DNA of 64,000 nucleotides from Amphiura filiformis (taxonomy: Eukaryota > Echinodermata > Ophiuroidea > Amphilepidida > Amphiuridae): contig NW_027305496.1 of the NCBI RefSeq assembly GCF_039555335.1, positions 372,001 to 436,000 on the forward strand, written 5' to 3'. The position numbers were made by a program, and so were the translations under genes. Below are positions 28,212 to 61,465 of the stretch, one piece after another. Position 1 is the stretch's first letter, and each line of letters starts with the position of its first letter. The notes beneath the pieces were generated by a model. That model had not been told where the DNA came from, did not search any database, and saw only the letters and a program-made list of their open reading frames with translations.

Positions 28212-28230
28212 TTTTAATGTACTTAGTAAA

Positions 28231-35272: not shown

Positions 35273-35956
35273 GTAAGTGTATATTTGAATACATGAATAC
35301 AAAACACACCCAAGTCCATTGACAGTGATTTTGAGAAAACTAAACAAAATTGTGCATCATTTTAATTTCTTCAGTAAGCGTTACCTGGTACGTAAATAGG
35401 GCAAGTTTAACATGCAAATGAGTATGCCGGACTTGGACTGTGTTGTGAATCACATATGTGCATTCTTTACCCTTTGCTCTCAGTCATTTATTCTTGATCT
35501 GTGCGCGTTCAGCTTCATTTCTGCGTTCTTACCACCTATTCCGTCAACATGTTGCTATCACCTCAATTTAGCACGTCGGCCATCATGCCCTGTTTGCGAG
35601 GACACTATAATATGTGTGCAAAAACCACCCAAGTCCTTAGGATTTCACATGCTCAATAGACACACGTAGAATGGTAGAGTGTGGATTTGTGTTGTTCTTT
35701 TTTACATATGATATGTATAAGCAACAATTTCTCATGCTAAATGAATTCGGCCATATGGACTGAGGTGGGCTTTGTATTCAGGTATTCATTTATATTGTGG
35801 GTTACCATTACGGGGGTAGGGGCTTATTTGAACTCCCTTGCGTTAAAGTCCATTATCGAAAAAGGGTTTATACATCATCATCATTATTATTATTATTACT
35901 ATTATTATTATTATTATTATTATCATTATTATTATTATTATTATTATTAGTGTTAC

Positions 35957-36043
<87 letters not shown>

Positions 36044-39000
36044 GGCTATTCTGGTTGGAATTCTCGGAGGATGCTTATTGCCATGCTGCTGTTGTTGTTG
36101 CAGAAAAACTGACGATAGATGTAGGACTTGTTTGGTAAGTAAGCCTATAGACGAATCCAATTCCACGCATTCCTACACCTCAATGGCAGCCATAGCTGGG
36201 TCCCCGTCGGCTCTATCTCACCTACAATGTGAAATGATGCGACCTTGGAGGGTATTTTAAATTGCATTCTATCACCCGTGTAGACAAAAGAATGATAACA
36301 GTTTACAACACAAAAGAATCTAACATCGAATTTTAAGCGGCTTTAATCCAGCCAATTGGGCAGTCACAACACCAGTTGGGTGCTGCGGGGACCCAGTAAT
36401 GGCCGACCAAATCCTGACCCTGACTTGGCTCGTGGAGTCGTCTATACAGGGTCTGTAAAAGTAATTATCGCTTCTGTTTTCCCCTTACAACAATTTCATG
36501 CGAATCCACATATTTGAGAACATCTTGTGAAAGTTTTGAATGCAAATTGATATCGCGGTCGTATGATTCTTGATCTATAGCTAATGTCATGTAATATGTA
36601 GGTCATAACGTAAGAGGTCATTGACCTTTGTAATGGGTACAAATGTCAAACACATGCTTTTTGATCCATGATTATGATTGAATTATCGTTAATTGTCATT
36701 TTCTTGTATATCATGTGATAAAAATAATTAACTATTTCATTTGACAACAGAATGATGAAAATGACGCATGTCTGAGATATTTCAGGAATAAAATGACCTC
36801 TGACGTCAAAACACACCACTGGTGCAATGCAATCGTTTGCAGTTTTCACAAGTGATGATGCCTAAATCTGGTCATTTATGTTAATAAATCACTCCTAATA
36901 GTAATAGGACAACGCCAACCATTTACTAATGTTTCCTGTTTAATTTTGTTTGATTTCAGCTCGCACTGGACTTCATAAGTGCATTATTAGTAGTGGTATT
37001 GGCGATTGCCTTGTTGGGATCTGATATAAAAGCGTATGAAAGCATCAAGGGCAAATACGATAAATGTCTAATGTTTAATGATGATGAGAGTTCTTGTAAG
37101 GTATTTACAGAATTATTCTATTTACTATTACAGGGCTGTCAACTCTCAGGCATTGGGCGTGAGTCTCACCCATTTCTCACGGTCTCACGCCAAGGTAGTT
37201 TTATCTCACGCCTAGTAGTAAATATCACGCAAGGAGCTGTCAAATGAGTAAAATCTCATGCATTGTAAAATAATTTGTTTGTCCCTACCCCCTCCTCACT
37301 TTTGAGAATCTAGGGGGCGCCGTGGCTCAAGTAATCATGGGTCAAAATGAACAGTGTAGTCGGCAAAAAGTACGCACCTGTTCGACAGTGTCTCACGCCA
37401 AGCAATTCCATAAAGTTGAAAGCCCTGCTTATTCTGTACAAATCCAATACAAAACCATTGTTACTTGCCATAAAATGTTAGCTTTTACTGGCAGATAAAT
37501 CCCCTTTTAATTTTGAGCCGAACAACTAATATAAGGCAAAGCAAAGAAAACTACCAATACGTATCACTCCTTCGGTTGTGTTACGGTACGATCCTTCGTT
37601 GCGTAGATCACCGTTCCGCACGCCATGTACGTACTGTGTTATAAACATCACATATGTGTTCGACTAATATTTCCATCGTAATAATAAGCGACGGTTCCTG
37701 CGTTTTATTCAAAATCTCGGATTTTGACAAAACTGCAGCACCCAGGGTCTTGATTTTTGCAGGTTATGCTGGTTTAAAGGTCCGTGACCCGATCGACAGC
37801 ATCATCCCCCCGATTGTTCTCATTTTTTTTCTAGGGTCTGTGGTTTTTGGTATCATTTAATAAATTATATTTTTCTCATTACCATCCTGAAATTTGACGA
37901 TCCAATTTGATGTATTTTTGGAGAAATCAAGAAACAAACAGGCTATACTGGTAACCACCTTCGACATTCTGGGTAGGAAAAAATGATTCCGTGAATAGGA
38001 GCCGTTTACTCCCATGCCAATTCGCACGAACGGAAATAGGTCCGAATCCATGAGGGCGCTATAATGATAAACGCTTAAAACAAAAATAAAGAAATACATA
38101 AGGGATTAAAAATATGAGAAAAAATGTCCCCCACTATAAAATTAATTATTTAATTAATTAAAAATATTATAAAAATCCCATTTTTTCATTAAAACAGTTC
38201 CTAAAATAAAAGATAAGTGTAAAATGTACGTGATGATAATATACAAAATTAAAAGGAAATGTATCAGGGTCAAATTAAAATAAAAAGAATGAGATATTTT
38301 GTCAAAAGAAAGATGAGCGTAGTGGTATGGCGAAGCACTCGACGGGAGTGTTGTTTCTGGATGCCGGACCACAATGCAATTCATGGTACCAACGTATTGG
38401 CTTACTAATTGTGCTAATTATTCACTTTTACGCTGAAAATGTTCTCGTTTTGTCACATAGATGCACAAAGGGGACAATATTTGAAATTGTATGTAAGTTT
38501 GAAGACAATCCATATCCTAAACTGATAGGGTTACCCCCCTTTAAGTACAATATAATCGTGTAAAAAAACCCAGAATTTTGAAACATATTGATGGCGTCCT
38601 CCTCAGCAAATGTTATAATATGGCTTTAAGGCGTAAAGGCACTTTAGGTTATTTTGCTAAAATAATACAGTTTATTTCAGCAGAGTACTATACATGTTTT
38701 GTCATGTTGGCATTAAACAACAAGTATTTGCAACAGAATCAATGTCACACGCATCCATCTCCTAAAAGCTCACACAAAATCATATCAAAAGTCCCGGAAA
38801 ATCAGAGTAGTGGAACAGTGCCTAATTTGCACAAATTCAAAACGGCAGCTTATGTAGGTAAAAGCTGGTTAAAATCCATACCATGCCAAATATATACCAA
38901 TGTATTCATTATATAGCCACAAATGCCAAATGCTAATATTTTAGGGTCCACATGTGTCGGCAATTGAAAAATGCTCCAATTTTAATCAATCTGATCTCCA

Positions 39001-42000
39001 AATTAATTGTTCATCTGCCAAAAAAAAAATAAATAAATAAATAAACGTATGTTTAGAAATTTTAGTTCGTTTCGTTTTATTCTCCTGGTGGAATCTATAA
39101 TTATGTGGAAGAAAAAAATAATGAGTTATACAAAGCAAATATATTGAATGAACTCATTTTCATATGCGGTGAAATAGCCTCACTGTAGATAACAAACCAA
39201 TCACCTACATTTCCCTCAAACAGACCGAGAAGGCGACTTTCAACGTTTTAGTGGCGTTATTTCTAATAAGTGCCTTTGAATTCATCATTGGTTTGGCAAC
39301 AGTAATCGCCGTTTGTTTCAAGATCAGACGATGGTGTAGAGGAGAACCCGATGACGAACAGGTGGATCTATTTCGTGTAAGTAGTCTATTTTCTACACTG
39401 GTTCGTAGTGTACGGACCACGGCTGTGGTTGTTTCAGAGTGCGGTTTTTCTCAATCGATTGACCTTTTCGGTAAATCCCATAAGCCTTTGGGAGTACACC
39501 TGAGAACTCGTCATTTGACGTCACGCCGATTTGCAATGCGCACTAACGATGTTCGATAAACGACGTGCGCATCGGCGCAGATCGGTGTGACGTCAAATGA
39601 CGAGTGACGTGTACTCGCAAAGGCTTATGGGATTTATTGAAAAGGTCAATTGACCATCACTCTGTGGTCTGATTTTCACTATTTAAATCAATATTGAAAA
39701 ATACTACTTTGATGTTTTGCAAAAGTTCATTCTACAAATCACATACTTTGAAAACATGCTTGATTAATTGTTGTTAATGAGTGTTGTTGTTTCAGCCCTC
39801 TTAACATAACATAACATAATAGTGCACAGCACTATGTTGAACAAAGGGGAAGTCGTGCGATTTTGTTGTTAAAAGCAATTTCTCAATTGATTTCATTACA
39901 TTGAAAGGTAAACATGTTTCCATTTTTTTAAAGACCGTTCAGTGCCTAAAATCCAAGATGGCCGCCGTGATTGAAAATTTGCCATATTTTACTCATAAAT
40001 TGCGCTTTAGTAGGGTGCAGAATGGAAGTCCCATTCTCGGGTTGAGTACAAGAAGTTTTGAAGGTGTTTCTTAATAGATTTGAGGACGCTGAATAAAATG
40101 AGAGGGGTCTGCACCATCGAAAAGTGTGTGGAACTCTTGGTAGAGGGCGTTTTCAAAATGGCCGCCAAAATCCCTTAAAATCACCATAACTTGGTCAGAG
40201 AAGCACCTAGCAGCACGATTCTGATGTATATACCCATGTTTTTAGGGTCAAGGAATCCAATAGAGTCATTAACAACAGCCTTTGACCTATCATTCCAAGA
40301 TGGCTGCCAAAATTTCAAAATGGCCGCCAGTGAAAATTAATTTGGCTATATCTCAGGTGCAGAAAGTCCTAGAAGTATGATGCTGGTGTCTATACCCATG
40401 TTTACAGGGTCTAGAAATCCATTGGTATAATCTAAAACAGCACAGGACCTTAAATCCCAAGATGGCCACCAAAATGTAAAAATAACCACCACTAAAATGC
40501 AGAATTTAGCCTATATCTTATCTTATCAGTGGTTTATACGGCCTTATCCGGGGTTTATGATCCTTACCTGGGGCTAAGATACCTTAACCTTAGCATAACA
40601 CAGTCTAAACCCCAGATAAGGTATCTAAACCCCAGATAAGGCGCCGTAACCCCAGATTAAGGGACATAGATTCCAGATAAGGCAGTCCAAACCCCAAATA
40701 AGGTGCCTTAACCCTAAATAAGGAACATAAACCACAGATAAGGCATCTAAACCCCACGTAAGGTGCCTTAACTCTAGATAAGGATCGTTAACCCCGATAA
40801 GGGTCGTAAACCCCAGATAAGGCACCTAAACCCCAGATAGGGTGCCTTAACCCCAGATAAGAGACGTAAACCCCAGATAAGAGACATAAACCCCAGATAA
40901 GGCAGTTTAAACCCCAGATAAGGCGCCTTAACACCAGATAAGGAACGTAAACACCAGATAAGGCATCTAAATCCCACATAAGGCATATAAATCCCAGATA
41001 AGGCGCCTTAACTTCAGATGAGGGACGTAAACCTAGGATAACACAGTCTAAACCCCAGATAAGGCATTTAAACCCCATAAGGCTCCAAATAAGGGATGTA
41101 AACCATAAGGGATGTAAAACCCAAAAAAAGGGATGTAAACCATAGATAAGGCAGTCTAAATCCCAGATCCATTCTTTAGGCATCTAAACCCAGATAAGGC
41201 GCCTTAACCCCAGATAAGGGACGTAAACCCCAGATAAGGCAGTCTAAACTCCAGATAAGGCACCGTAACCACAGATAAGAGATGTAAATATAGGATAATG
41301 CAGTCTAAACCCCAAATAAGCTGCCTTAAGTAACTCCTGATAAGGGATGTTAACTGGGGATAACACAGTCTAGACCCCAGATAAGGCATCTAAACCCCAG
41401 ATAAGGGACGTAAGCTCCAGATAAGGCAGTTCAAAAAACCCAAATACGGCACCTTAAACCCTAGATAAGAAACACAAACCCCATATAAGGCAGTCTAAAT
41501 CCCAGATAAGGCATCTAAACCAAGATAAGGTACCCTAACCCCAGATAAGGGACCTGAATCTAGGATAATGCAGTCTAAACCCCAGATAAGGTGCCCTAAC
41601 CCCAGATCAGGAACGTGGATCTAGGATAATGCAGTCTAAACCCCAGATAAGGTGCCCTAACCCCCGATAAGGGATGTGAATCTAGGATAACGCAGTCTAG
41701 ACCCCTAAACCCATTACACTGTTGTCAATGGGAAAATGGCTGATTTTGGGTGAAATTTTCTCAAATTTAGAACTCTCACAGTTAATATAGTAAACGCCAC
41801 CAATATCAGGTGTGTGATGTGCCCTGATTAATTTGATTTAATTTAATTATTTAACTTTGTTTACAAGCTGAAAGTATTTCATGTTTCATGAGATGGGAAA
41901 GCCCCTTGTACGTGCAAGATAGAATAAAACTGTGATTGTGTGATTTTAGTGTATATTGTTGTTATATGTACCAACCATACTTTATTTTCAATTAAAGACT

Positions 42001-45000
42001 TAGATTTTGTTAGCTTAATCAAACAGTGTATTTGTGTTGTGCATTCGTGTGAGTTCGGGTAAAAGGTGATTTTGGCCTTGAGTCAGTACGACTCGTAACA
42101 GGTGAAACTAGATGATTTAATGATCAAATAGGTTGAAATGAGACTTTTCTTGTTTAAATGCACTGAACCGCAAACAAAATGGCATTGCGCCCTCGAAGCT
42201 GAAAGATACAATTAATTAGATAGGGCGAATATATGCTAAAAGGTGTCATATAATAAGAAAAATATACCATTTCGAAGCATCAAAACCCAAAATGTACTTT
42301 TTTGGCAATATAACTTGGTCAATTACAGTGATTTTAAACAGTCTTTTCAGATGCCACGCAAATAAATAGTTCATCATTTCCATGCATCGCCCAGGCCTAA
42401 AATGGCATTGCGCCCTCGAAGCTGAAAGATACAATTAATTAGATATGGCGAATACATGCTAAAAGGTGTCATATAATAAGAAAAATATACCATTTCGAAG
42501 CATCAAAACCCAAAATGTACTTTTTTGGCAATATAACTTGGTCAATTACAGTGATTTTAAACAGTCTTTTCAGATGCCACGCAAATAAATAGTTCATCAT
42601 TTCCATGCATCGCCCAGGCCTAAAATGGCATTGCGCCCTCGAAGCTGAAAGATACAATTAATTAGATAGGGCGAATATATGCTAAAAGGTGTCATATAAT
42701 AAGAAAAATATACCATTTCGAAGCATCAAAACCCAAAATGTACTTTTTTGGCAATATAACTTGGTAAATTACAGTGATTTTAAACAGTCTTTTCAGATGC
42801 CACGCAAATAAATAGTTCATCATTTCCATGCATCGCCCAGGCCTATTAGTGGTGTATAACTATGCACTAGTGCCATGAATAGGTACTGTATCTGATATGC
42901 CGTCCATCTTGGACCTGGCAAGGGGTCTGGTTATGTAAAACATTGTGCTTTTGGTTCAAAGACACAATTATACACTTGGAAACGTGATCATAAAAACAAA
43001 CTCATGCATTTATATACATTTAAGCAGTATATAAGTAGCCATATTGGTCGCCATATTGAATAATAATCATAATTCTAGAATATTAAAGTTATCTTTGAGT
43101 GCATGACACAATGCTAGTTCCAGTGTTTGAAATTTAGATTTTGAGCATACTTTGAGAGGTATGTGGCTTTTTTTTGCATGTGTCAGTCAGTTTTACAAGA
43201 TTTTGGCGGCCATCTTGGATTTTACCACTTACCCTGAATATTAAATCTTTCTTTGAGTGTCTGACACAAGGCTACATAGTTCCAGTGTTTGAAATTTACG
43301 TTTTTAGCATATTTTGAGAGCGATATATAGCTTTTTTTGCATGTGTCAGTCAGTTTTATAGGATTTTGGCGGCCATCTTGTATTTTACCACTTACCCCGA
43401 AATATTAAATCTTTCTTTGAGTGTCTGACACAAGGCTACATAGTTCCAGTGTTTGAAATTTACATTTTTAGCATATTTTGAGAGCGATATATAGCTTTTT
43501 TTTGCATATGTCAGTCAGTTTTATAGGATTTTGGCGGCCATCTTGGATTTTACCACTTCCCACGAAATAAAAAAATGGAAACATCTTTTTTCCCATTATT
43601 TACCCCCACAAGAGACAAAATCAAGTGAAAGTTTGCTTTTAACACCGAAATCACACGACTCGACATAGTGCTGAGCACTATAACATAACATAACATAACA
43701 TAACATAACATAACATAACATAACATAACATAACATAACATAACATAACTCAAGAACCACAGAACCTACAAAAGTATATCTGTGATATTTGAATTCTTCT
43801 ACACGCTCGCTATGAAATGATCAATGCAATTTTTGCCAAAGCTAACTACCATTCGCAAGATACTGTAAAATATTTCCTAACCTTAATATTATGCAATCAC
43901 TCGCCAAATATACTTTTTTCGGCTTATACAAAGACTCATAACATCAAGGATTGATAAAGAATTATCATAATGACGTGCTAGGTTGTGCTTAGCGTAATGC
44001 GTGACTGCTGTATTCTTATGTCAATTTAAGCGAGCGGAAGTTGGGAATATAATTGGCGCGCGCAGTATGAAAAACGGAAAAATATTTATAATGTTATTTT
44101 GCCAATTATAATCCAAACACAATATAAAGGGCTAATTAAGTTTTGTAGGGGTGCAAATGAGCACCTCTTGATCAGAAGACGAAGGAATTTATTATTAGAT
44201 TATTAAATAACGTTCGCTATGCCAGATATTACAGAATTGACTTTGTCTAAATGGCAAAAACTAACAGACAAAAATTCATCTTTATACCTAGGTTGTCGAA
44301 CCATCGAGATCTTCCCATCCTTCGGCACACCAACCATATCAGATGCCCCATGGGGTGAGACCAGGATACGACACCAGGTACAACCCACACATGTCACCAG
44401 GACAGGGGTCAGGATATGACCCGCGACGTGGAAGATCTCATGACCCCTATGTGCACTATAACAATCACGGAGGAGGTTGGTATATGAAGAGCTTATTTCC
44501 GAAACGTGTTAAGTCCACAAACCCATGTTTCTGATTTACCTGTGCAATATTGCAATGGGAGGTATTATAATTTCAGTTGAATGCACCATTACAAAGCAAA
44601 CAGTGGATGCATGCACAGTAACAATACTGTGTGAGGCTTTGTTTCTCAAATGAGAACAATAGTCTGCATATTGTTATGCAGCATTGTTATGGTAAATAAT
44701 AGCTTGTTGATGGTACAACTCATTGTTGTAAATGTCAAACTTGTCAAAGTAATTGTGATTGTATCACACCAGTAAATGAGACACATGGGGTTGTGGACTT
44801 AACACGGTTTGGAAATAAGCTATTCATTATGTACAGTTACTATTTTTACTTTATTATATCTACAAAGGTACAACCAAAACAGGCACATTTAGGCTCAATA
44901 ACTCCTGGGCCCGATTTGCCTATGACAGGACGGATTGGGACTGTCGGAAGTAACACCCTACTCGTTTCGTAACTGACTGCAAGCTACATTGTACAAGTAT

Positions 45001-45341
45001 AGGCGTGGTACTATTGTACACAGGACCGGCGGCTTATGCGTCCGCGTCGAAGAACGGTTATGACTTTTCTGGTTATTGTTTTCCAAGTCCAAAATATAGG
45101 CCTATCATGATGAGAGCTGAAGTCTGAATTTAACCTATAGATTTTTATTATGATTGAAATTACTCTTTTATGCTTGTTTATCATTTGGTGAACAAAATAG
45201 TCGCTCATCCCCTCTTAATTATTCCTTTAATTTTTTAAATATTTTTTGCATTCATTTTTCACCATTAACAGTCATCTTAATTTGTTCTGTTTTTTCTTCT
45301 TTTCAGCTACTTATAATCCAGGTTTTGGAAGATACATGTAA
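35090..45341 (+). CDS. Four-transmembrane MS4A/CD20-like protein, 244 aa, six coding exons
   Basis: Coding exons: 35090-35272, 36045-36134, 36960-37100, 39224-39376, 44343-44475 and 45307-45341, all with AG/GT borders. The first four junctions are phase 0, the last phase 1. TM1 is at about residues 14-37. A short outer loop has sequon N48. TM2 is about 52-73 and includes FGGLWAILVGILGG, reminiscent of the MS4A GG-I/W signature. A cytosolic loop holds six consecutive cysteines (75-80), likely palmitoylated. TM3 is about 92-114, the second outer loop about 115-142 and TM4 about 144-170 (SAFEFIIGLATVIAV, with the family's LEF-like motif). The cytosolic tail is rich in Pro, Gly, Tyr and Arg. Length and topology suit MS4A proteins, which act as membrane adaptors or channel-associated proteins. 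The family call is from pattern, not a search. A second copy lies at 60.5 kb. The last two exons are less certain than the first four. Confidence 0.75.
35273..36044 (+). other. Intron with TTA microsatellite at its 3' end
   Basis: The intron starts GTAAGT and ends in a trinucleotide microsatellite that runs directly into TATAG. No ordinary polypyrimidine tract precedes the acceptor. Frames for poly-L, poly-Y and poly-I here come only from the repeat. Confidence 0.75.
35874..36040 (+). repeat. (TTA)n microsatellite abutting a splice acceptor
   Basis: About 55 triplets of ATT/TTA with a few interruptions (TCA at the left, GTG near 35950). It ends four bases before the coding exon at 36045. Confidence 0.95.
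36045..36134 (+). other. MS4A-like gene 1, second coding exon (30 codons)
   Basis: Encodes the end of TM2 and the cytosolic loop: AILVGILGGCLLP, six Cys, then RKTDDRCRTCL. Phase 0 at both ends; donor TTG|GTAAGT. The copy in gene 2 (61322-61413) is 92 bases and out of frame. Confidence 0.8.
36135..36959 (+). other. Intron 2 of MS4A-like gene 1
   Basis: Starts GTAAGT and ends TTTGATTTCAG. No other gene. Contains nothing more than AT-rich unique sequence. Confidence 0.65.
36960..37100 (+). other. MS4A-like gene 1, third coding exon (47 codons)
   Basis: Encodes TM3 (LDFISALLVVVLAIALLG) and much of outer loop 2 with two Cys. Phase 0 at both ends, donor AAG|GTATTT. The paralogous exon at 62788-62937 keeps LVVVLAI-type TM3, SD-KAY and YDKC. 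Confidence 0.8.
37101..39223 (+). other. Intron 3 of MS4A-like gene 1
   Basis: About 2.1 kb. 37130-37420 repeats the word TCTCACGCC several times in a degenerate manner. The 112-codon frame at 38578-38916 has no recognisable features and no splice context. The intron ends CCCTCAAACAG. Confidence 0.6.
39224..39376 (+). other. MS4A-like gene 1, fourth coding exon (51 codons)
   Basis: Encodes TM4 and the start of the cytosolic tail (KIRRWCRGEPDDEQVDLFR). Phase 0 at both ends with donor CGT|GTAAGT. The paralogous exon of gene 2 would lie beyond the window. Confidence 0.75.
39435..39664. mobile_element. MITE, 230 bp, ~95-bp TIRs, in intron 4
   Basis: Left CAGAGTGCGG and right CATCACTCTG ends start inverted arms. 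They contain TAAATCCCATAAGCCTTTG and CTCGTCATTTGACGTCAC in mirrored order. It lies 58 bases downstream of the coding exon end at 39376. Confidence 0.85.
40540..41712 (+). repeat. ~20-bp minisatellite with AACCCCAGATAAGG core
   Basis: More than 50 degenerate units of about 20-22 bases: CTAAACCCCAGATAAGGC with variants TTAACCCCAG and GACGTAAACC. Minus-strand frames reading LIWGL and PYLGF repeats are produced by the period being close to a multiple of three, and are not genes. Confidence 0.9.
42176..42844 (+). repeat. Three perfect-phase tandem copies of a 223-bp unit
   Basis: Starts at 42176, 42399 and 42622; identity is nearly complete, with only a few base changes (for example GATAGGG/GATATGG). 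Recent tandem triplication. Encodes nothing recognisable; the identical minus-strand 62-codon frames are by-products. Confidence 0.95.
43077..43560 (+). repeat. Three tandem copies of a ~165-bp unit
   Basis: Each unit reads TTGAGTGTCTGACACAAGG, then GTTCCAGTGTTTGAAATTTA, then TGTCAGTCAGTTTTATAGGA and GGCGGCCATCTTGGATTTTA. The last unit overlaps the right TIR of the 3.9-kb element, so the TIR has been amplified inward. Confidence 0.9.
43681..43749 (+). repeat. (TAACA)n microsatellite
   Basis: About 13-14 perfect pentamers. The same repeat with about three copies borders the other end of the 3.9-kb element at 39802. Confidence 0.95.
43750..44342 (+). other. End of intron 4 of MS4A-like gene 1
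   Basis: AT-rich, unremarkable, ending CACCAACCATATCAG. The acceptor has a weak pyrimidine tract, one reason for caution about the next exon. Confidence 0.5.
44343..44475 (+). other. MS4A-like gene 1, fifth coding exon (cytosolic tail)
   Basis: Joins in phase 0 and encodes a Gly/Pro/Tyr/Arg-rich tail (MPHGVRPGYDTRYN, then SPGQGSGYDPRRGR). This low-complexity composition is normal for MS4A C-termini. The best donor is GAG|GTTGGT at 44475/44476. Without splicing, translation would run on into the MITE at 44484 and stop at 44532-44534. Confidence 0.6.
44484..44827. mobile_element. MITE, 344 bp, ~45-bp TIRs, next to a coding exon
   Basis: Ends ATGAAGAGCTTATTTCC and the inverse of GGAAATAAGCTATTCAT, followed by GTGTTAAGTCCACAA in both arms. 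TAT borders both sides (44481-44483 and 44828-44830), a possible target duplication. A related 30-base word occurs inside the R1 repeats at 46205 and 51691. It begins 8 bases beyond the proposed donor of the exon ending at 44475. Confidence 0.8.
45307..45341 (+). other. MS4A-like gene 1, last coding exon (11 codons)
   Basis: Strong acceptor (pyrimidine-rich, TTTTCAG at 45306). Joined in phase 1 it gives ATYNPGFGRYM then TAA, continuing the Tyr/Gly/Pro composition of the previous exon. Short, so tentative. ATTAAA at 45838 could serve as a poly(A) signal. Confidence 0.5.
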
Positions 45342-45610
45342 CGTAGCAAGCGGAAAGGACATCACACTATATTTTCTACTTCCAGAGACAACACCTTAGT
45401 TCATACTAGCTTTGGGTTTGTTGCCCAATTAGCATTGCGCTGTCTTGAATTTGATACAAAAGTTACGTCAGTTTTTCGCCTCAAGCTGTATCTCAAGAAC
45501 TACATCAGCATTGGGCCCATCTGTACACTTATATTGCACGGCCCCTGAATCTTCATCATGTTCATTGTAGTATTCTCAAGAGGACCGGACAAAGTCATAA
45601 TCCAACGCAA

Positions 45611-45792: not shown

Positions 45793-45888
45793 CTGGCGTA
45801 TTGATCCAAATGTGAATTTCTTCATTTCACTTTATATATTAAAAGGAACAACAATAATTCTAAGCGTTCCACACTGCACTGTACAACA

Positions 45889-46753: not shown

Positions 46754-46755
46754 GA

Positions 46756-50850: not shown

Positions 50851-51139
50851 AAATGTTAGTATTTTTTATTCTTTTTACTAATGCGCTGTGCCGTTTTTCA
50901 AACACGCCCCTGAATGAAATTGATGGGCAAGTACCCTTAAAACAAAACATTACCTTGTTTTGCCAAATTAATGAAACATAGCTGGAGTTGGGAATAGACG
51001 CCTGAATGAAATTGTGATGTTCTGCATTAGTTTGGATCAAAATTTAAAAAAGTATATCTGATAGTGAAAACTAAAATTTTCATCACATAAAAGTATGTTA
51101 TAAGAGCCAAGATAAATGCAGTAATAAATAGAAATAAGA

Positions 51140-51212
51140 AGGCACCGCCCGGATTCGAACCAGGGATCTCCTGTTTACTAGACAGGCGCTTTAACCGCTA
51201 AGCCACGGCGCC
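51140..51212 (-). tRNA. tRNA-Thr (anticodon AGT)
   Basis: On the minus strand a complete 73-base cloverleaf. The acceptor stem GGCGCCG/CGGTGCC has one G-U pair, and the discriminator base is T. D-stem GCTT/AAGC; anticodon stem CCTGT/ACAGG with loop CTAGTAA; T-stem CCTGG/CCGGG with loop TTCGAAT. A and B boxes are intact and there is no intron. It matches the usual animal tRNA-Thr(AGT) closely. AGT, read as IGU after deamination, decodes ACU/ACC/ACA. No obvious T-run terminator lies immediately downstream (lower coordinates); the nearest bases on the minus strand are CTTATTTC. Confidence 0.95.
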
Positions 51213-51235
51213 GGATGTATACTCCGTGAATCAAC

Positions 51236-52046
51236 ACAGATGTCATACTGCAGTTGCTGTCCGTTTTCCTATACCCAATACACAGTGCTCTTTCCCATTG
51301 ACGCGTGACCTCTACAAATAGCCCTACGTTAAAAGTATGGGGATATGACTAGTTAACGTCGCTGTGTGAAAAATAACCGGCCAATATTAAAAGTACTCTT
51401 CTAAAGTTCTAGAAAATATAGTTTTTAACATGTCCTAAATTTTTAGCTAATTTAGATGTTTGGAAATATTCGTACTTTGGTGTTTTAGTTAATGTTATAG
51501 GTAATAGTACATTGCCTAGTTAACGTCGCTGTGTGAAAAATAACCGGCCAATATTAAAAGTACTCTTCTAAAATTCTAGACAATATTGTTTTGTAACATG
51601 TCCTAAATTTTTAGCTAATTTAGATGTTTGGAAATATTCGTACTTTGGTGTTTTAGGAAGGATATGTAAACGACAGATAACACCAAAAATATGAAGAAAT
51701 TATTTCCAAACCGTGTTAAGTCTGCAAACCACCATGTTTCTCATTTTCAAGAACGCTGGTTAACAATAAACACGTATTTGTCTCATTTCGTAAACAAAGC
51801 CCACACACAATTGTTCTCTAGCGCTCGCTTTATAATCGTTCACCCAACTGAAAGGATAATCCCAGCGCATTGCTCCATTGTACGTGTAAAAGCAGAAACA
51901 TAGGATGTGTGTATTTAACCAGAGAAGATATGATTTAATCAGTTGAGCTGTTTTCAATGAGTGTTATCTTGGTTTATAGCTTTTAATGGGGTTTGAGTCC
52001 TGCAAAGGTCGAATTAAATTCTACTGTAGACATGACTGCATCATGT
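51236..52046 (-). repeat. Dispersed repeat family R1, copy 3, with internal duplication
   Basis: Inverse orientation: starts near TCATACTGCAGTTGCTGTCC and ends ACATGACTGCATCATG. About 175 bases (TTAACGTCGCTGTGTGAAAA through TTCGTACTTTGGTG) occur twice in tandem, at 51353 and 51519. The frame at 51691-51903 is repeat-derived. Confidence 0.85.
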
Positions 52047-52148
52047 ATAGTAAACGCCTTTAAGAAGGTATGCACTTGTTTGAGTGATAATAGTCAGAGA
52101 CAAGGTTCATTATTGATTATGTGGTACAACAGCTGATGGGTTCGAATC

Positions 52149-52610
52149 TTGGTAGAATCTTTAATTCTTATCCATTTCTTTTTCGGACATTTTCAGAGAA
52201 TTAAAAGCAATAACTGGGTAAACAACGTGGCATCTAGTTTCGTGCACTTCCAAATATGCGATGCAAATATTCTTTTTCTTCTTTTAGATACTGTGCACCA
52301 TTCCTTGTGGAACAGGACGCATAGGATTGTGTTGTACTGGTGTGTTGGTGTTGGTGGTGGTTGTGGTGTTGTTGGTGGTGGTGGTGGGGGGAAGGTGACA
52401 TTCGAGGCAGAGCAAAATTGTACGAAAATGGTAAAAAAGCCCTTCAAATATACAATATCATGGCAGCCAACATCCCATAAGGGACTTCTTGACTTCTTGC
52501 TGCTGTTATTTTGTTGCAACAGCCTTTTGTCCTGCATTTTTTCCTTATTGTTGCAGACGCTGTGGCAAAAAGCCGCTGCGTCTGTCGCTGCAAAAAACGT
52601 CGATATATAG
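52149..52610 (+). other. Open frame, 153 codons, probably not a gene as read
   Basis: The frame spans a (GGT)n-like low-complexity block and two good-looking acceptors (CTTCTTTTAG ending 52287; TTATTGTTGCAG ending 52556). In another frame, the sequence after 52287 reads CTIPCGTGRIGLCC. This weakly resembles the C-x-x-x-C-G-x-G core of a thrombospondin type 1 repeat. After the second acceptor one frame gives AVAKSRCVCRCKKRRYID then stop, a basic Cys-rich tail. These may be exons of an unrecognised gene. Evidence is thin. Confidence 0.2.
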
Positions 52611-52860
52611 ACTAGTAAATAAAATGTACGTTTGACCTAGAAAAAATTGGAACGTCAATGCTTTTGTTGGTGTTGTAAGCATTTCTAAAAGACCTCCAAA
52701 CAGAGCCAAAAAGAAGAAAAAAAAAAGAAGAGAAGAAATGCTTATTTGCATGAAACAAAATGTTCGGATTTTGATACAAATGGCTCTCAAATTCTTCCGC
52801 TTAGAACCACATGTTAAACATAGTTTGCTATATATTTCAGGTGTTTTTTTTTGGCATACT

Positions 52861-53112
52861 TAAGGGATGGGGTATGAGCCTTTGGACAGTATTTATTGTG
52901 GGACATTAGAGCACATCAGACATATCGAATTGCATTCTGAATACGAAGAATGTCCTGGTGATATCAAATAATTAAGATTTTTTGACCTTTTGAAATTTTG
53001 ACCTTTCGTATTGAAGATATGGATTTCCCCCAAAACACCAAAAAAAAAGGTCTTTTTGGGAAAAAGTCCATATTTTCAATATGAAAGGTCAAAATTTTCA
53101 ATAGATTGATAC
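52861..53112 (+). mobile_element. Palindromic MITE, partial copy
   Basis: Starts TAAGGGATGGGGTATGAGCC, continues GAGCACATCAGACATATCGA, and reaches the family's centre (GACCTTTCGTATTGAAGATA facing ATTTTCAATATGAAAGGTC). The right arm is missing. Same family as 13155, 14270 and 21931. Confidence 0.75.
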
Positions 53113-53869
53113 AAGTCTATGGCTGTCCCAAAATCAGTTCCAGACCCGGTTTCCAGACGCAATTTTGTATGTTGTTACATACAATTCAAAGTAATTTTAT
53201 CATCAAGTGACCCACATAAAGGAATACGACACCTATCGTGAGCCAATCTGCATTCTGTTGCCTGCAAAAAGCCGACGATCAGGTAAGAATTCTAAAAGCA
53301 GCGTGACTATAATATTCACGTTAATTTCATTATAAGCTTAAAACGTCAAATTGCAGTCATAAAATATATAATATTAGTAAATCACCAAAGCAAAGGTATG
53401 TGGAACTGCAATAACTATAACAAACTATGTGCTCAAAGAGTTGTCTTTGGCATGTCGGTTTCTTGAAATATCACCAAAAATATCAAATGTGGGAAAAACG
53501 CCCCAAAATTTAAAACAAACACGAATCTTCCAAAATAAATAGATATTCGCACTCGGCGGCCCAGTGACTATCTGCCGCTGTGTTTGGGGTAACTCGTTGC
53601 TTCCCCTCTCCAGATACCTGTACTTCAAGTTCGCCCATACCCCACGCCTTAAGCTGATTTATATATTTTGTTTCTAACCACTTGATACTGCACATAAGCA
53701 TATTATTCTTTGATCATTGAATGTGCTTCTTTCTAGTGATTTTGGTTGGTTGGTTTTTGATTTAGACTTTTGGGGAATACATTTTGATTCGGGTGCTATG
53801 GTCAGCACAACTTGTTTCACGTTTACCTTGATTACCTTGAACTTTATGGCTCAAAAATCACAATACAAT

Positions 53870-54097
53870 AACACAATATAACTAATTTGGGTACAAAAGA
53901 TTCGCTTCGTGGTTTCAACCCACGTTTATATCAAGTGTATTTATTATGAAGTATATATATAATATACATGCATACCGTATTATAGTTTCTTAATCAAGTT
54001 GCGTGTGTGAGTGAGTGTGACGGCCATTTTCTTCCAGATTTAGCTGTTTGAAGGCGGCGGTAACTGATATCCGTGATAGGCTATGCCCGGGTAGCAG
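53870..54097 (+). promoter_or_regulatory. Candidate promoter / 5' UTR exon of the second MS4A-like gene
   Basis: Similar to 34605-34735 upstream of gene 1 (ATTTGGGTACAA, CTTCGTGGTT, CCCACGTTT, GCGTGTG-GAGTG). A donor-like GCAG|GTAGGT sits at 54097/54098. If used, intron 1 of gene 2 would span 6.4 kb to 60529 and hold the LINE. Order relative to the duplicated block (54126-55275) is reversed compared with gene 1, so a rearrangement is needed. Tentative. Confidence 0.3.
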
Positions 54098-54125
54098 GTA
54101 GGTCCTATAATGTATTTCTTATTTC

Positions 54126-55275
54126 CTATATTATAAATATAAACTTAATACTCCGCATGATGCAGTCATGTCTACAGTAGAATTCACCACGAACTTTGCA
54201 GGACTTAAACCCCATTAAAAGCTATTAAACCAAGATAACACTCATTGAAAACAGCTCAACTGATTAAATCATATCTTCTCTGGTTGTGCACATGTGTCTG
54301 TTTTTTGTTAACCATCATTCTTGAAAATGAGCAACATAATGATTGTTGACTTTAACACGGTTTGAAATAATTTCTTCATACTTTTGGGTGTTATCTGTCG
54401 TTTATAATCCTTCCTAAAACACCAAAGTACGCATATTTCCAAACATCTAAATTAGCTAAAAATTTAGGACATGTTAAAACTATATTTTCTAGAATTTTAG
54501 AAGAGTACTTTTAATATTGGCCGGTTATTTTTCACACAGCGACGTTAACTAGGCAAATCCCCATACTTCTAACGTACGCTATTTGTAGAGGTCATGCGTC
54601 AATGGTAAGAGCACATGTGTATTGTGTATAGGAAAACGGACAGTAACTGCAGTATGGTTGGTGAGCGACGGGCGATTGGTATTTCACCGATCGCAAGAAA
54701 AGGAGTCCCATCTGATTGGCTAGAAATCGATCGCCAGATCGCTCAGTACAAACTCAAAATGGAGAGATGTATTCAATTCGATTGAAATCAATATTCTATT
54801 ATTGGCGCAGATAAAGAAAGTGGTATAGTGTGTTGATATAGTACATTGTATAGACTTGTGCTTTAATATTTTGTACAGGTGTTCCTTTATATAATTGTAA
54901 TTCTCAAACATAATATATCACAATTTTGACGAACGATTTCAAAATCGTTACGGATAAAATGCAGTAAAATATATCCACAGCAAACAGCAATCCCCGCTGA
55001 TTAGTGTATTGCGTTTCCAGTTAGTGTATTGGAAACAAAACCTGGGGTTTACCTGACAAAAATCGAATTATCTTGTAATGGTAATATCATATGGGGTACT
55101 TGATCATGCGCAAATCGTAAAAACATAGAATAGAAACTCTGTTGCAGGCTATGTGGTATCTCATATCGTGTGCATATGGTATGCTTAGCCTGAGTCGCTC
55201 GGCCTATCTCGAACAAAATAGCCATGCGTAGCTGTTGAAAAACGAGAGGATTCGCCGTACTATCACGGCAATTGT
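54126..55275 (+). repeat. Duplicated block, filled-site copy of 33615-34276
   Basis: Same order and orientation as the block upstream of gene 1. Differs mainly by the 502-base R1 insertion at 54156-54657 and small indels. Homology ends near TATCACGGCAAT. Confidence 0.85.
54156..54657 (+). mobile_element. R1 element copy 4 with precise boundaries
   Basis: The empty counterpart (33641-33650) reads TACTTCG|TTG, and this copy reads TACTCCG|CATGATGCAG...CAGTATGG|TTG. The R1 unit is thus a discrete mobile element of about 502 bases here. Its ends show short imperfect inverted similarity. No clear target duplication beyond one or two bases. Confidence 0.85.
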
Positions 55276-55777
55276 TGACACGAAGATATAGAGATGATGA
55301 CGTTGTGCCCCATCAAAAAATTTTGCATTAGAAGAAGTAGAAGAAGAAAACTAATTTTATATGCAATCAATCAATCAATCAGATTTCAATCAGATTTATT
55401 TTATTTCCATCAAAAATTACAACAAAATAATTATAAAAAGTACAACACGATGGAGGAGGTACAACGATAAGCGAAGCCTGTAAATGCTGCACCCCCTGTA
55501 TAATTAAATCACACAAATTAAAACAGAACAAAAACAAAACGAGGATCTGTAGCCAAAAAATTTAAATACAAATATAATGAATCAATCAATTTAAATATAA
55601 TATTGTACTATAATCATGAGTATTTAACATTAACATATAGCAAATTACAAACACTGATATAAAGCATAAAAGCAATGATAAACAACTTTGAGATGACATA
55701 TTAAGTGGAGGCAATGATTTAATAGAATGATTAACAGAAATATCACACTATAATAATGAAGCAAAACATGCTTGGAT

Positions 55778-56070
55778 CTACTTGTCATTCAGTAAGGCAT
55801 GTACTCCTCTCTTAAAGAGAGAAATGTTGGTAGCCTGTCTAATCTCATAAGGTATTTGATTCCAAATTTTTGGACCATTTGAGACAACAGTACTTGTTTT
55901 GTGCAGTTGGTAATTATGCTTATTTCTAGTATTATAACTGTGAATATCCTTAAGACTCTTAAACATAGCATCAAATGATTTTGGTAACATACCTTGGGTA
56001 TACTTATACATAAAAATAGACAACTCTTTCTTGTACATATCAAATATATCAAGAACATTGTATTTATCAA
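55778..56070 (-). pseudogene. LINE C-terminal region
   Basis: Two overlapping frames share this stretch. The true one reads MYKKELSIFMYKYTQGMLP and HSYNTRNKHNYQLHK, the conserved C-terminal region of Jockey/CR1-type RT proteins (HSYNTR-N motif), and stops at 55778. Separated from the RT by a frameshift between 56070 and 56100. Confidence 0.85.
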
Positions 56071-56088
56071 AAAGTGGTCTTGAATGGC

Positions 56089-57243
56089 TTAAATACGGAC
56101 TATGAGATTTATTCTTAAAGCTCTTTTTTGTAGCTTAACTAATTTGTTCAGATATGCCTTGTTTGCATTTCCCCAAAGTAAAATACCGTAATTAAAATAG
56201 GGTACAACTAGTGAACAGTAAAGGTTATACAAAGTTTGTTCGGGTAAATAATGCTTCACCTTGTTCAAAACGCCAATATTTCGAGAAGACACATTACAAA
56301 TATTAACAATCTGTTTCTTCCAAGAAAGATTTTCATCAATAGTTAGACCCAGGAATTTGGCTTCTTTAACACGAGCCAGTTTACAACCATCTAAAGATAT
56401 TACATTATTATTGTCATTGATTTCCTTGGTTTTGGACACAATACCTAAAAACATGAGATTTGTCTTTTTTGCATTGAGTGAAAGTTTGCTAGCTTTGAAC
56501 CAGTTAATTACCTCCCTCAGCTCATTATTAATTACATTACAGAGTTCATTAATATTTTCATGTAAGTAGAAAACAGTGGTATCATCAGCGAATAAAATGA
56601 ATGATAGTAATTCAGATGTGTGAGCGATGTCATTCATATAGATGATGAAAAGCAGAGGACCCAATATTGATCCTTGTGGAACGCCACATAAAATCGGTTC
56701 ATAAGATGAGACTTCTGAATTGTATGACACATATTGTTTTCTTTCAGAAAGATAAGATGTTACTCCTCTAAAACCATAGTGTTCCAGTTTGCTTATCAAA
56801 ATATTATGATTTATGGTGTCAAATGCTTTTGACAGGTCCATAAAAATACCAGCTGTGTGTTTCTTTTCACTACTTGCATTTTCAATGTCAAATACAAAAT
56901 CCAAAACTGCCATATATGTGGAATGGTTGCTTCTAAAGCCATACTGCTTATCATACAAAACATTGAACTTATTTAAAAAATCAATACATCTATTATACAC
57001 AATCCGTTCAAGCAATTTAGAAAAACATGGTAACACTGAAACTGTTCTGTAGTTACCAAACATTTCAGGGTTGTCTTTTTTGTATATTGGAACTACCTTT
57101 GCCATCTTTAAATCATCTGGCACAACTCCTGTGTTTAAAGAGAGACTTAAAATCCTCTGCAGTGGATATGCAATTTCATTCGCAACTCTTTTAACAATAT
57201 CGGATCCTATACCATCGTGACCTGGACTTTTTCGACTACCCAA
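56089..57243 (-). pseudogene. LINE reverse transcriptase domain
   Basis: Reads KSPGHDGIGSDIVK, KMAKVVPIYKKD, NYRTVSVLPCFSKLLE and QYGFRSNHSTYMAV. Motif A is FMDLSKAFDTINH, motif B is GVPQGSILGPLLF and motif C is LFADDTT. All catalytic Asp are kept. Coding upstream of the first Met in the same frame extends to about 57310 and is part of the domain. The C-terminal end breaks near 56090, after QKRALRI. Confidence 0.9.
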
Positions 57244-57314
57244 AGTTGCAATAATTTTCAGAATTTCTTCTTCAGTGGTTGGTTTAAAGAAACATGTAGA
57301 ACTATTTGGATTTT

Positions 57315-58838
57315 TTAAAAAAAAAAAAAATCTTGACCAGTATGGCTTATACTTTGTGCTAGTTTGGGTCCAATATTTGAAAAATACTCATTGAACTTAT
57401 CAGCAATTATCTTAGGATTTGTTATTGTTTCCCCATTACTTACAAATTTTTGAGACATGTTACGCCTTTTACTTCTCAATATATTGTTGAGAATCTTCCA
57501 AGTATTTCTCATACTGTACCTTTCTCTTTCAAGCAATGAAGAAAAATAACGACGTTTTGCCAGTCGGAGTAAAGATGTTAGCTTACTACGATATGATTTA
57601 TATTCAGAAATGTTTTCCTCTGTTGGTTTTTTGATTGATTTCTTGTACAATATATTCTTTCTACGAATCGATTTTACTAACCCTTTAGTTATCCAAGGAC
57701 ATCTAGGGTCATGTTTCTTGGCCCTCTTGTTGGGTTTACATTTTGGAATACACTCATCATAAAGTAGCATAAATTTTTCAATGAACTTATTATATGACAT
57801 ATTTACATCATCAGATGAACAAATAAAATCCCAGTCTACGTTTTTCAGCTCATTTTGAAATTTTTGTACATTTCGCTCAGTTTTACACCGTATGTTAAAA
57901 TTACAGGTACCTTGAAGATTATCAATCTTTCTGTACAAATTTAAATTTGTAGATAGAAAGATTGGAAAGTGATCGGTTATATCTGTTACCATGATTCCAG
58001 ATGTTTGCCATGTATAGCAATTGGTAAAAATGTTATCAATAAGAGTAGCTGTTTTTGTGGTAATTCTTGTAGGCTTTGTAATACATGGATATAAGGAATA
58101 AGATGACATAGTATTTAGAAATTCAGCAGTAGGTACATGAAGATCTTCATTTAACAAATTAATGTTAAAATCACCCATCAAGTATACAAGTTTATTTTCA
58201 TTATTAATAATCGACAGAACTCCATCTATATACTTATTGAATTCATGTATCCCTTGATCAGGAGGTTTATATACAACACCAATAACAATGTTTTGCAATC
58301 CTATTCTTTCTATTTCTAGAAAGAGACTTTCAACATATTCAGGATGTTCAATACCATCCAAGTCATCACGGAGTTTATAATGTATGTTGTTCTTCATATA
58401 GAGGCAAACGCCACCACCGCCTTTATTCTTTCTGTTTGCAAATTCAAGATTATAACCGCTAACATTAAAATAATCATGTGGCTTTTCTTTTAACCATGTT
58501 TCCACCAATCCTATAACATGAAAGTCAATATCAATAGTACACATGTAATCTCTAAACGAATCAAAGTTCTTATCCAGACTCCTGATGTTAAAATTAAGGA
58601 GTGACAAATTTTCAGAAGATTCGTTAGTAACATCTCTTAACTTAGTATCAGTATAATAATTAGTGTGACTGTTAAATTGCCCTGTATTCATATCATCCTG
58701 GTATTTTGTTGGATCAATAGCCAAGTGTTCATATTTATCAACATTAAATTCACGTGGAGTATCATCAATATCAAAATACTTATACAATTCTAATAAGAAA
58801 TTTTCATCATCAATGAAGTGGTTAAATGGTAAATTCAT
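57315..58838 (-). pseudogene. LINE AP-type endonuclease domain
   Basis: Hallmarks in order: LLNFNIRSL, GLVETWL, NKGGGGVCLYMKN, VVYKPPDQG, MGDFNINLL, TLIDNIFTN and TDITDHFPIF (catalytic Asp-His). A basic linker follows (ITKGLVKSIRRKN) and then FNEYFSNIGPKLA, which precedes the RT. The frame stops in a poly-T run (14 A on the plus strand, 57317-57330). A change of one base there would restore continuity with the RT frame. Confidence 0.85.
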
Positions 58839-58852
58839 TGTATCATTGCATT

Positions 58853-59074
58853 TTACACAAAACCAATAATGATTGTCATTTTTTTGAATTCTTTTCTGCT
58901 CAGATTGCTACATGATTTATGCACAAAACATTTACAAGTGCTACATTTCAGTTTTCTGTGATTTTTCTTAACACGCTTTTGGCATACAGAACAAGGGCTA
59001 CATTCAGACATCAAAACACAAAAATATTTATATATAAAATTACAATTTAAGAAAAAAAAACAATTATTTTGCAC
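58853..59074 (-). pseudogene. LINE N-terminal PHD-like zinc finger
   Basis: The frame contains CSVCQKRVKK...KCSTCKCFVHKSC. This C-x2-C, C-x2-C, H-x2-C arrangement matches the PHD/treble-clef finger of CR1-group ORF proteins. The frame is thrown off in an A7 run near 58877-58884. In the next frame the sequence goes on NDNHYWFCVKCNDTMNLPF, giving the last Cys pair and joining straight to the endonuclease frame. So this is one ORF with a one-base indel. The start is taken as the frame's ATG, with only moderate trust. Confidence 0.8.
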
Positions 59075-59364
59075 TCAAATAAATTTGAGGTCAACTTAAG
59101 TATGGCCCACATGCCACAAACAATATTTGGGTGAAAAGTACTGTACAACAATGAAACGTCAGTCAGGCATTATCAGAATTACTTAAAGAACTACATGTAT
59201 TACTAGGTAGATGTATATCACAGATTACTAGAAAAACGCAAGATGCACCCAGTACAATATGCAAGTAATATTTTTCGACCTGACCATTAACGTAAAACGC
59301 ATCTATTTTCATTGATTTTGTACTTTATTTTATCATACCGACTTATTAACTTTTTTCAATACTA

Positions 59365-59819
59365 AACTGAGCTCAAAAAGAAACTTATAATTTTTCACAA
59401 GGTCATATCTTGAAATCCTGTTCATCAAATCGAACCAAAATTACACACAGATTTACTTCAAAACTCTACTTTTAACACATGTCAGTAACCAAGCAGTTCA
59501 ACTGACACAACAGCAAAATGCACTGACATGGGACAGCTTCCTGGACCACATTCACAGCCCAGCCCTGTTTCATGATTTTTTTGCCCTGGGTGCCAAATAT
59601 TGGGCTGTGAAAGTGAAGGAAGTCCAGGAAGCTGTCCCACTACAGTGCATTTTGCTGTTGTGTCAGTTGGACAACTGCTTGGTTACTGACATGTGTTTTG
59701 AGTAAATATTAAGGTAATCCTGTGTGCAATTTTGGTTCATTTTGATTGACAGTATTTTAAGATATGACCTTGTGATTCACAAGTTGTAAAAACTAATAAG
59801 ATTCTTTTTGAGCTCAGTT
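59365..59819. mobile_element. Palindromic MITE, 455 bp, TA-flanked
   Basis: AACTGAGCTCAAAAAGAA is mirrored by TTCTTTTTGAGCTCAGTT, with TA at both borders (59363-59364 and 59820-59821). Pairing continues almost to the centre: CACAAGGTCATATCTTGAAA, ACATGTCAGTAACCAAGCAG and GGACAGCTTCCTGGAC all have inverse partners. Tc1/mariner-type by target site. Non-coding. Confidence 0.9.
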
Positions 59820-59904
59820 TATTTGTGGTTTTTTACCCAGTTGCTTATTTTGTTCAGTCTATGTTTGGTATTAGGCCCAACTTACTTTCTTTAATTTTCA
59901 AATG

Positions 59905-60060
59905 TTGGGAGTGGCCTTTCGTTTAATTGCTCTTTTTCTTCTTTCTGTTTTTCTAGTTTTCTCTTCATACAGGCTAGCATGCTTATAAGTTTTTAAACTT
60001 GGCTGGAGCATTTTGCTTGAGCCTGGTCCATCAGGACCCAAGTGTGTGTCTACCCGGACC
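59905..60060 (+). repeat. Dispersed repeat, intact partner of 11981-12545
   Basis: GTTGGGAGTGGCC, TACAGGCTAGCATGCTTATA and GAGCCTGGTCCATCAGGA occur in the same order as at 11985-12490, without the MITE insertion. Confidence 0.65.
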
Positions 60061-60529
60061 GACTGGTTATAGTCTTTTTGTCTATGTATTTATTTAGTTC
60101 ATTATGTTGTTGATGACATTGTCGCACAATAGTAATTGTTCTTCTGCAAGTACAACCGTGTGTGATCCTGTGTTGTGATTTAATCCTCATGTCCACATTC
60201 CGCTTGTTCAAACACGCAATCAACAACAAAGACCGGCTTATGACTTCAATGATGTAAGGGGGGAGGGAATTATGTTTTTTTGAGGCATTAACAGCTGTTA
60301 TCATTACGATAAAGCTGACGGGTTGGCGCCTAAATAGCTATTATGGTTTCTTTCAAAATACTGTGAAGATTTCGCCAGCAAAGGTTACGTTGAGGTAAAG
60401 AAGCAATTAGTTTATAGAGATACTGATCAGTCAGTCTTCTTAAAATCTGACGATATCAGTTATTTTACATTGAGTCAAATCAAATTTGGCCAATTTTACC
60501 ATCTACTTATGTTTATCATTGTTTTATAG
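60061..60529 (+). other. Sequence before the second MS4A-like gene's coding start
   Basis: No coding recognised. Ends in a T-rich tract and the acceptor GTTTTATAG at 60529, so at least the end is intron. Confidence 0.5.
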
Positions 60530-61077
60530 TACATCATGTATTACACGGGCAAGTCGTGTCGTAACCAATGCTGTCGTATTATACTGGGGCTAATTACTAT
60601 ATTTCTCGGTCTTCTCTCTTTCGTAAGCGCAATCCTGATACTTGTTGTAAACGATTTTGTTTTAAATGGCGAGGAAAAGGCGGAGTTTGGAGTCGCAATA
60701 ACAGGAGGAGTATGGGTAAGTCAATGAGGTAGAATCAAAGAGTACCGACTCAAAATTGCATCATATTGCGTCGTTGGGCAGGAAAACCTCATAAAAAGTA
60801 GTCAAGTGAGTGAGAATTTTTCCCATCTCGAGTAGGCCACTTGCTTTGCAAATGGGGATGCTTTTCTTCAAAAAACGTGTATGCTCAACACTGGAAATCT
60901 AATGGCGCGCCTATAAGATGACGGTTTATTTGAACGTTCATCACCGGAAAGATGAAGTGGTGATTGGGAAGTATGAACATTTAGATCGAGCTGGTTTTTT
61001 CCGTTATAAACCTACACAACTTGTGTTGTACAGAGTCAGGAATAAATATGAATAAAGAAATAAGCACATGACAGCGA

Positions 61078-61188
61078 AATCATCATTATCATCGTCATTA
61101 AAAGTATCCGCATCCTCCTCCTGCTCATCTTCATTATCATCATCATTACCACCATCATCATCTTCACCATCATCATCACAATCATCAA

Positions 61189-61287
<99 letters not shown>

Positions 61288-61312
61288 TATCATCATCATC
61301 ATCATCATTATG
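61078..61312 (+). repeat. (TCA)n microsatellite abutting a splice acceptor
   Basis: About 75 triplets of ATC/TCA with interruptions in the left third. It ends about ten bases before the acceptor TTGCAG at 61321. Poly-Asp, poly-Ser and poly-Met frames across it are artefacts. Confidence 0.95.
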
Positions 61313-61465
61313 GTATTGCAGGCTATTCTGTCTGGAATCCTTGGAGGTGCCTATTACCATGCGGTTGTTGTTGTTGTTGCCGAAAAACTGACGATAGATG
61401 TAGAATATGTTTGGTAAGTATGAATCGAAGATCATAATTATTAATTCAATATATCTTTCCACCAG

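Follow-up and report, generated by a model that had tools for sequence, protein, structure and literature searches.

The closest described systems are known from several genes. In PMEL merle of dogs, the length of a SINE poly(A) tail displaces the branch point from the acceptor and alters which acceptor is used, as described in PMC7349775, and in microsatellite-unstable cancers shortening of the T tracts of ATM, MRE11 and HSP110 accompanies exon skipping (PMC9957390). A UG-rich, TDP-43-bound tract upstream of the 3′ splice site of CFTR exon 9 is tied to exon inclusion (PMC12171016). Long AG exclusion zones are treated in section 6 of PMC1431707, where 838 of 67,334 exons in a human set have a zone of at least 100 nt and one half to one fifth of such zones are estimated to represent distant branch points; one example is traced to a repetitive element, and the AG-free zone made by that repeat is treated as unrelated to splicing. 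The same section expects an AG lying between a distant branch point and the acceptor to be used, with an exception, described in PMC5224494, for an AG within about 8-12 nt of the branch point. In the portion of PMC5224494 drawn on here, microsatellites are named in reference titles only, and we make no claim that a case like the present one is absent from print.

Here we describe two paralogous genes with a long trinucleotide microsatellite at the acceptor of the same exon, E2. The tracts share with PMEL merle the placement of a slippage-prone simple repeat at an intron/exon boundary, with the T tracts of ATM, MRE11 and HSP110 a microsatellite at the position of the polypyrimidine tract, and with CFTR exon 9 a repeat-like tract preceding a splice acceptor. 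The differences are substantial. The SINE tail is a mononucleotide repeat with a measured phenotype, whereas the present tracts are trinucleotide, occupy two paralogues, have no element body in sight and are known from sequence alone; in place of the UG-rich CFTR sequence they present UUA and UCA repeats. The T runs, moreover, are good polypyrimidine tracts, whereas runs at the E2 acceptors never exceed two pyrimidines.

Results

Exon layout of two paralogous genes

Self-comparison of the window (the whole 64-kb stretch of DNA that was analysed) revealed two neighbouring paralogous genes on the + strand, with three matching exon pairs. The window looks like animal DNA, with exon-intron genes, retroelement coding regions and a G+C content of 31-41% (2-kb steps). 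All exons of both genes are predictions from the DNA sequence. The features are as follows:

35078..35272, + strand: gene 1 E1, with the ATG at 35090 and a GTAAGT donor, encoding the first hydrophobic segment and the beginning of the second, homologous to 60530-60715
35273..36044, + strand: gene 1 intron A, 772 nt
35873..36042, + strand: gene 1 microsatellite, beginning with TCA units and continuing as (TTA)n, uninterrupted for at most 28 units (35957-36040)
35949..35950, + strand: AG within the gene 1 repeat, a possible decoy lying 94 nt 5′ of the E2 acceptor
36043..36044, + strand: gene 1 acceptor AG of E2
36045..36134, + strand: gene 1 E2, 90 nt, phase 0-0, AILVGILGGCLLPCCCCCCRKTDDRCRTCL
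36960..37095, + strand: gene 1 E3, third hydrophobic segment, donor candidates at 37096 or 37101
43680-43749: third perfect microsatellite of at least 30 nt, (ATAAC)14
60530..60715, + strand: gene 2 E1, ATG at 60536, donor GTAAGT
60716..61321, + strand: gene 2 intron A, 606 nt
61125..61308, + strand: gene 2 microsatellite, (TCA)n, uninterrupted for at most 33 units (61189-61287)
61320..61321, + strand: gene 2 acceptor AG of E2, 11 nt past the array
61322..61413, + strand: gene 2 E2, 92 nt, frame differing from that of gene 1
62788..62937, + strand: gene 2 E3

E2 carries the end of one hydrophobic segment and a Cys-rich loop. A fourth hydrophobic exon of gene 1 lies near 39200 (start approximate), and gene 2 extends toward the end of the window. 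The two copies of intron A are equivalent in that their flanking exons are homologous, both are in phase 0 and each follows a GG-x-W codon run. Divergence of the exons of gene 1 and gene 2 amounted to a dS of 0.55 (bootstrap 0.38-0.82; 133 codons compared, with gene 1 E3 taken as 36960-37097), spread unevenly from 0.34 in E1 to 1.03 in E3.

The predicted protein of gene 1 matched the Pfam profile PF04103 (MS4A/CD20-like) along its full length (21.8 bits, E 2e-4, profile 1-156 of 156), or with 14.6 bits when a different E3-E4 join was used, and the E1-E2 part of gene 2 scored 20.6 bits (E 5e-4); neither the gene 1 protein nor the gene 2 part reached the gathering cut-off of 27.9 bits. The encoded protein thus appears to have a CD20-like layout with MS4A/CD20 membership below cut-off, and is not an established member of that family. 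According to the phylogenetic study in PMC2826416, invertebrate sequences resemble MS4A in the membrane segments only, and invertebrates are concluded to be without MS4A. A search of solved structures returned six weak matches to other families (E 0.11 to 0.84), with a query whose loop sequence was inexact.

Several further features of the window were recorded. In gene 1, intron A contains a 40-nt inverted repeat (83%) that begins just past the donor (35280-35319 and 35755-35794, arms 435 nt apart) and is possibly a MITE. Intron B of gene 2 has a self-complementary fold-back (88%) at 61466-61643, just 3′ of E2, and its segment 62451-62665 is an inverted copy of 720-990 at the window start (about 271 aligned nt, 76% identical). 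Retroelement coding regions lie at 28192-30567 on the + strand (RVT_1 match at 28192-29748) and at 56089-58907 on the − strand (endonuclease match at 57318-58907), and the open reading frame at 28192 also matches 56422-57255 (tblastn). Large tandem arrays occupy 3321-5374 (55-bp units), 17222-18622 (37-bp) and 40604-41705 (about 20/61-bp). An 89-bp tandem repeat at 7635-7847 holds two matches to Rfam RF00032, the histone 3′ UTR stem-loop (34.9 and 34.8 bits; cut-off 34), and a tRNA-Thr (AGT) is found at 51140-51212 on the − strand.

Microsatellite tracts at the E2 acceptor

The gene 1 array was delimited by TRF as (ATT)n at 35883-36040 (52.7 units, 93% matches) and is preceded by CATCATCATCAT, beginning at 35873. 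Intron A of this gene ends in ...TATTATATAG, with the AG at 36043-36044, so that the tract continues into the acceptor. The gene 2 array, (TCA)n at 61125-61308 (TRF; 61.3 units, 88% matches), is extended 5′ by degenerate repeat to about 61080 and is followed by 11 nt, TATGGTATTGC, and then by the AG at 61320-61321; its end lies 13 nt from the exon. The first-pass annotation had described a trinucleotide repeat touching the same 3′ splice site in both genes. Both repeats do lie at the E2 acceptor, but contact is exact in gene 1 only. That the position is kept while the motif has changed was borne out, with (TTA)n in gene 1 and (TCA)n in gene 2 at the same E2 acceptor of equivalent introns.

Perfect microsatellites of at least 30 nt (units of 1-6 nt) number three in the window, and two of the three sit at E2 acceptors, a distribution by which chance placement of the tracts was ruled out. 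Under uniform placement the crude product for both positions is 3e-7, a figure computed for the six modelled acceptors only and under an assumption of independence that common descent would violate. The occurrence of repeats at the same acceptor of two paralogues is real and not a product of chance. RNA folding assigned the gene 2 tract a mean unpaired probability of 0.74 and the gene 1 tract one of 0.56, with exon values of 0.44 and 0.46.

Splice signals at the E2 acceptor

It had been proposed that the microsatellite may replace the polypyrimidine tract, and an ordinary polypyrimidine run is indeed missing at both E2 acceptors. Over the 38 nt that precede the AG, no more than 2 pyrimidines stand in a row at either, versus 7, 6, 4 and 4 at the remaining four modelled acceptors (those of E1 and E3 in the two genes), although a run of 4, as seen at two of the comparison acceptors, is itself ordinary. 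Pyrimidine content at −5 to −24 was 0.65 for E2 of gene 1 and 0.60 for E2 of gene 2, against 0.70-0.80 at the other acceptors; these 60-65% come in runs never above 2, and they exceed the content at 87% and 75%, respectively, of all + strand AGs in the window. Signal loss at the E2 acceptors is therefore clear for run length and branch point only, the content being just modestly low.

The branch-point rules applied are vertebrate ones, used here by analogy. A motif search found no YTNAY in the last 155 nt of either intron A, whereas all four other modelled acceptors have one within 40 nt; stretches drawn at random were free of YTNAY in 12.7% (92 nt) and 3.1% (155 nt) of cases (5000 samples each). 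The AG-free zone of gene 2 measures 215 nt and contains YTNAY only at −156, −189 and −195, and in this length and the lack of a consensus branch point near the acceptor it resembles the distant-branch-point exons with long AG exclusion zones of PMC1431707. Gene 1 differs from those exons in that its zone, free of YTNAY, is just 92 nt, short of the 100 nt that gene 2 reaches, and is bounded by an AG at −94; both zones, moreover, are made of repeat. Gaps between AGs elsewhere in the window (listed arrays left out) were at least 92 nt in 74 of 5377 cases and at least 215 nt in 0 of 5377, so that such zones are uncommon in the window, but they are made by the repeat itself. The nearest YTNAY in gene 1, at −175, is upstream of the AG at −94, which implies that the branch point would be an off-consensus A in the repeat, or that this AG is skipped or used; its use (35949-35950) would open a poly-Tyr frame and lead to a stop. 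Since the repeat also leaves the region without consensus branch-point motifs and almost without AGs, the spacing from branch point to AG is at least as likely a target of the repeat as pyrimidine supply.

Conservation of E2 and the gene 2 frame

Conservation is strongest in E2, with 27 of 29 residues identical between the genes compared with 63 of 104 in E1 and E3 together (Fisher P = 6e-4) and about 3 nonsynonymous differences compared with 56 (P = 2e-4); left out of these counts were the codon at the frame difference, one codon of the gene 2 Cys run, and any codon of E1 or E3 that faced a gap. The shortness of the exon (29 codons compared) and its consisting partly of a Cys run limit how strong this test can be. 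Past the frame difference, the 21 codons of E2 are 20/21 identical in residues (dN 0.02, dS 0.89). Such conservation needs translation, which suggests that E2 is spliced in and that its odd acceptor probably worked in both lineages.

With 92 nt in gene 2 as against 90 in gene 1, E2 of gene 2 is a base shorter in its early part and three bases longer in the Cys run. In the joined E1-E2-E3 of this gene, the last complete E2 codon is followed by two further codons and a stop, whereas E1 joined straight to E3 is open through E3 in both genes. Skipping of E2 is thus compatible with the frame in both genes, and in gene 2 it is inclusion, not skipping, that disrupts it. The gene 2 frameshift can be taken as a recent lesion, as an assembly error beside a long repeat or, most boldly, as marking an exon whose inclusion now turns the gene off. 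Within E2 of gene 1, a TGC/TGT run at 36084-36103 ends in TGCAG, resembling a second, exonic acceptor (the gene 2 counterpart is TGCCG); if used, it would remove 59 nt and lead to a stop.

Comparison of the two tracts

TTA and TCA are one transition apart, and each tract holds the unit of the other in register. In a common register, the gene 1 tract comprises 48 TTA and 4 TCA among 57 units, with three of the TCA contiguous at the 5′ end, and the gene 2 tract, its degenerate 5′ part included, 55 TCA and 5 TTA among 77. Outside the repeats, local alignment (200 shuffles of the gene 1 side for each comparison) found no similarity between the genes beyond shuffles for intron A (P = 0.235), intron B (P = 0.84) or the region upstream of E1 (P = 0.345). 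For the opening 150 nt of intron A the value was P = 0.02, which as one of four tests is not relied on; the aligned intron pieces include up to 2 nt of E1. Loss of intron similarity would be expected here because unconstrained sequence should be hardly recognisable at an exon dS of 0.55. A scan of bacterial and archaeal contigs for relatives elsewhere returned 206 pattern matches and 0 relatives, which says little for an animal locus.

Discussion

The position of the tracts, the relation of their motifs, the missing ordinary signals near the AG and the conservation of E2 are observations. Our best explanation is that the tracts descend from a repeat already present in the ancestral gene and are tolerated by splicing that still works, to which we give a probability of roughly 0.55. 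A compound TCA/TTA microsatellite at the 3′ end of the intron would predate the gene duplication, after which slippage may have homogenised one copy to TTA and the other to TCA; drift of a single ancestral compound tract would be the simplest account of what the two genes hold. In the RNA, the tract would form a spacer nearly free of AG, with neither a branch-point consensus nor long pyrimidine runs. The spliceosome could then rely on an off-consensus adenosine and dispersed uridines within the repeat, or else on a branch point 5′ of the repeat, from which the first AG fit for use is a long way off. E2 would be spliced in regardless, the tract being tolerated as a motif that makes almost no AG and offers two pyrimidines in three. 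Common descent, the inclusion of E2 and the placement of the branch point are the parts of this explanation that we infer.

Common descent is supported because the acceptor, the phase and the flanking exons are the same and because each tract has units of the other motif in register. Against it, the intron flanks are unalike, so that homology of the tracts would have to be read from position and unit content; at a dS of about 0.55 the repeat must have persisted for long; and a single C-T transition could have made the minority units independently. The explanation as a whole also has to accommodate one AG in the gene 1 tract and a pyrimidine content that is still fairly high.

It is possible, if on the whole doubtful, that separate repeats grew from T/C/A-rich sequence at one acceptor, a spot that tolerates only AG-poor tracts. 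The difference in motif and the failure of the intron flanks to align would fit such growth, as would the gradient of purity, which runs from the cleanest units beside the acceptor to a degenerate 5′ part, is clearest in gene 2 and resembles that of recent growth; reasoning from the motif, a unit with two pyrimidines is always free of AG. However, the four other modelled acceptors are without such a tract, and with only three perfect microsatellites of at least 30 nt in the window two independent arrivals at one acceptor are unlikely.

Gene 2 may also be decaying, with E2 and its repeat a non-functional remnant, a rather unlikely reading that would be compatible with common descent, independent growth or a length rheostat. 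The 92-nt E2, which shifts the frame into a stop, speaks for decay, but the exon past the shift is 20/21 identical in residues at the dN and dS given above, E1 and E3 are open, and the splice-site dinucleotides are intact. From these features it follows that the shift is recent, or else an assembly error next to a long repeat.

The first-pass annotation had further proposed that repeat length could tune splicing. Analogous systems in which control by repeat length at acceptors is known, namely PMEL merle, the ATM, MRE11 and HSP110 T tracts, and CFTR exon 9 (PMC7349775, PMC9957390 and PMC12171016, respectively), make such a mechanism plausible. A length-dependent rheostat maintained by selection, in which repeat number would set the branch-point-to-AG distance or the pyrimidine supply and hence the inclusion of E2, nevertheless seems improbable at this locus. 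It is just the E2 acceptor that lacks the ordinary signals of run length and branch point, and the open E1-E3 join of both genes would permit skipping, but the strong conservation of E2 favours steady inclusion, and in the example of Gooding et al. a long AG-free zone came from a repetitive element and not from a distant branch point (PMC1431707, section 6). Nor does the kept position call for a function, because inheritance of the repeat through gene duplication explains it.

Improbable too, in our estimate, is a version in which selection maintains the tract as a spacer that lacks a branch-point consensus and is adjustable by slippage. In both paralogues the number of units would fix the branch-point-to-AG distance and thereby the inclusion of E2; selection would act on the scarcity of AG and on the two pyrimidines in three, not on the motif, so that TTA and TCA would be interchangeable; and the gene 2 frameshift would make inclusion equivalent to truncation. 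Were this true, repeat length would act as a switch that decides whether gene 2 yields a short or a full product.

Some families of retroelements terminate in short tandem units, and retroelement coding regions are present in the window, but an origin of the tracts as 3′ tails of retroelements that entered the same intron is very unlikely, since two insertions at one acceptor would be needed, no element body is seen beside either tract, and a search for such an origin within the window found no match of intron A beyond that of repeat to repeat and the 40-nt inverted repeat of gene 1 (E 0.01, low-complexity filter on).

With both genes in one genome, the locus offers a natural paired test of the spliceosome's ability to cope with a long trinucleotide repeat that has neither a proper pyrimidine run nor a consensus branch point. 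The same pair of genes bears on whether the persistence of a repeat across gene duplication reflects constraint or drift. If repeat length affected inclusion, the two paralogues would carry a fast-mutating splicing switch.
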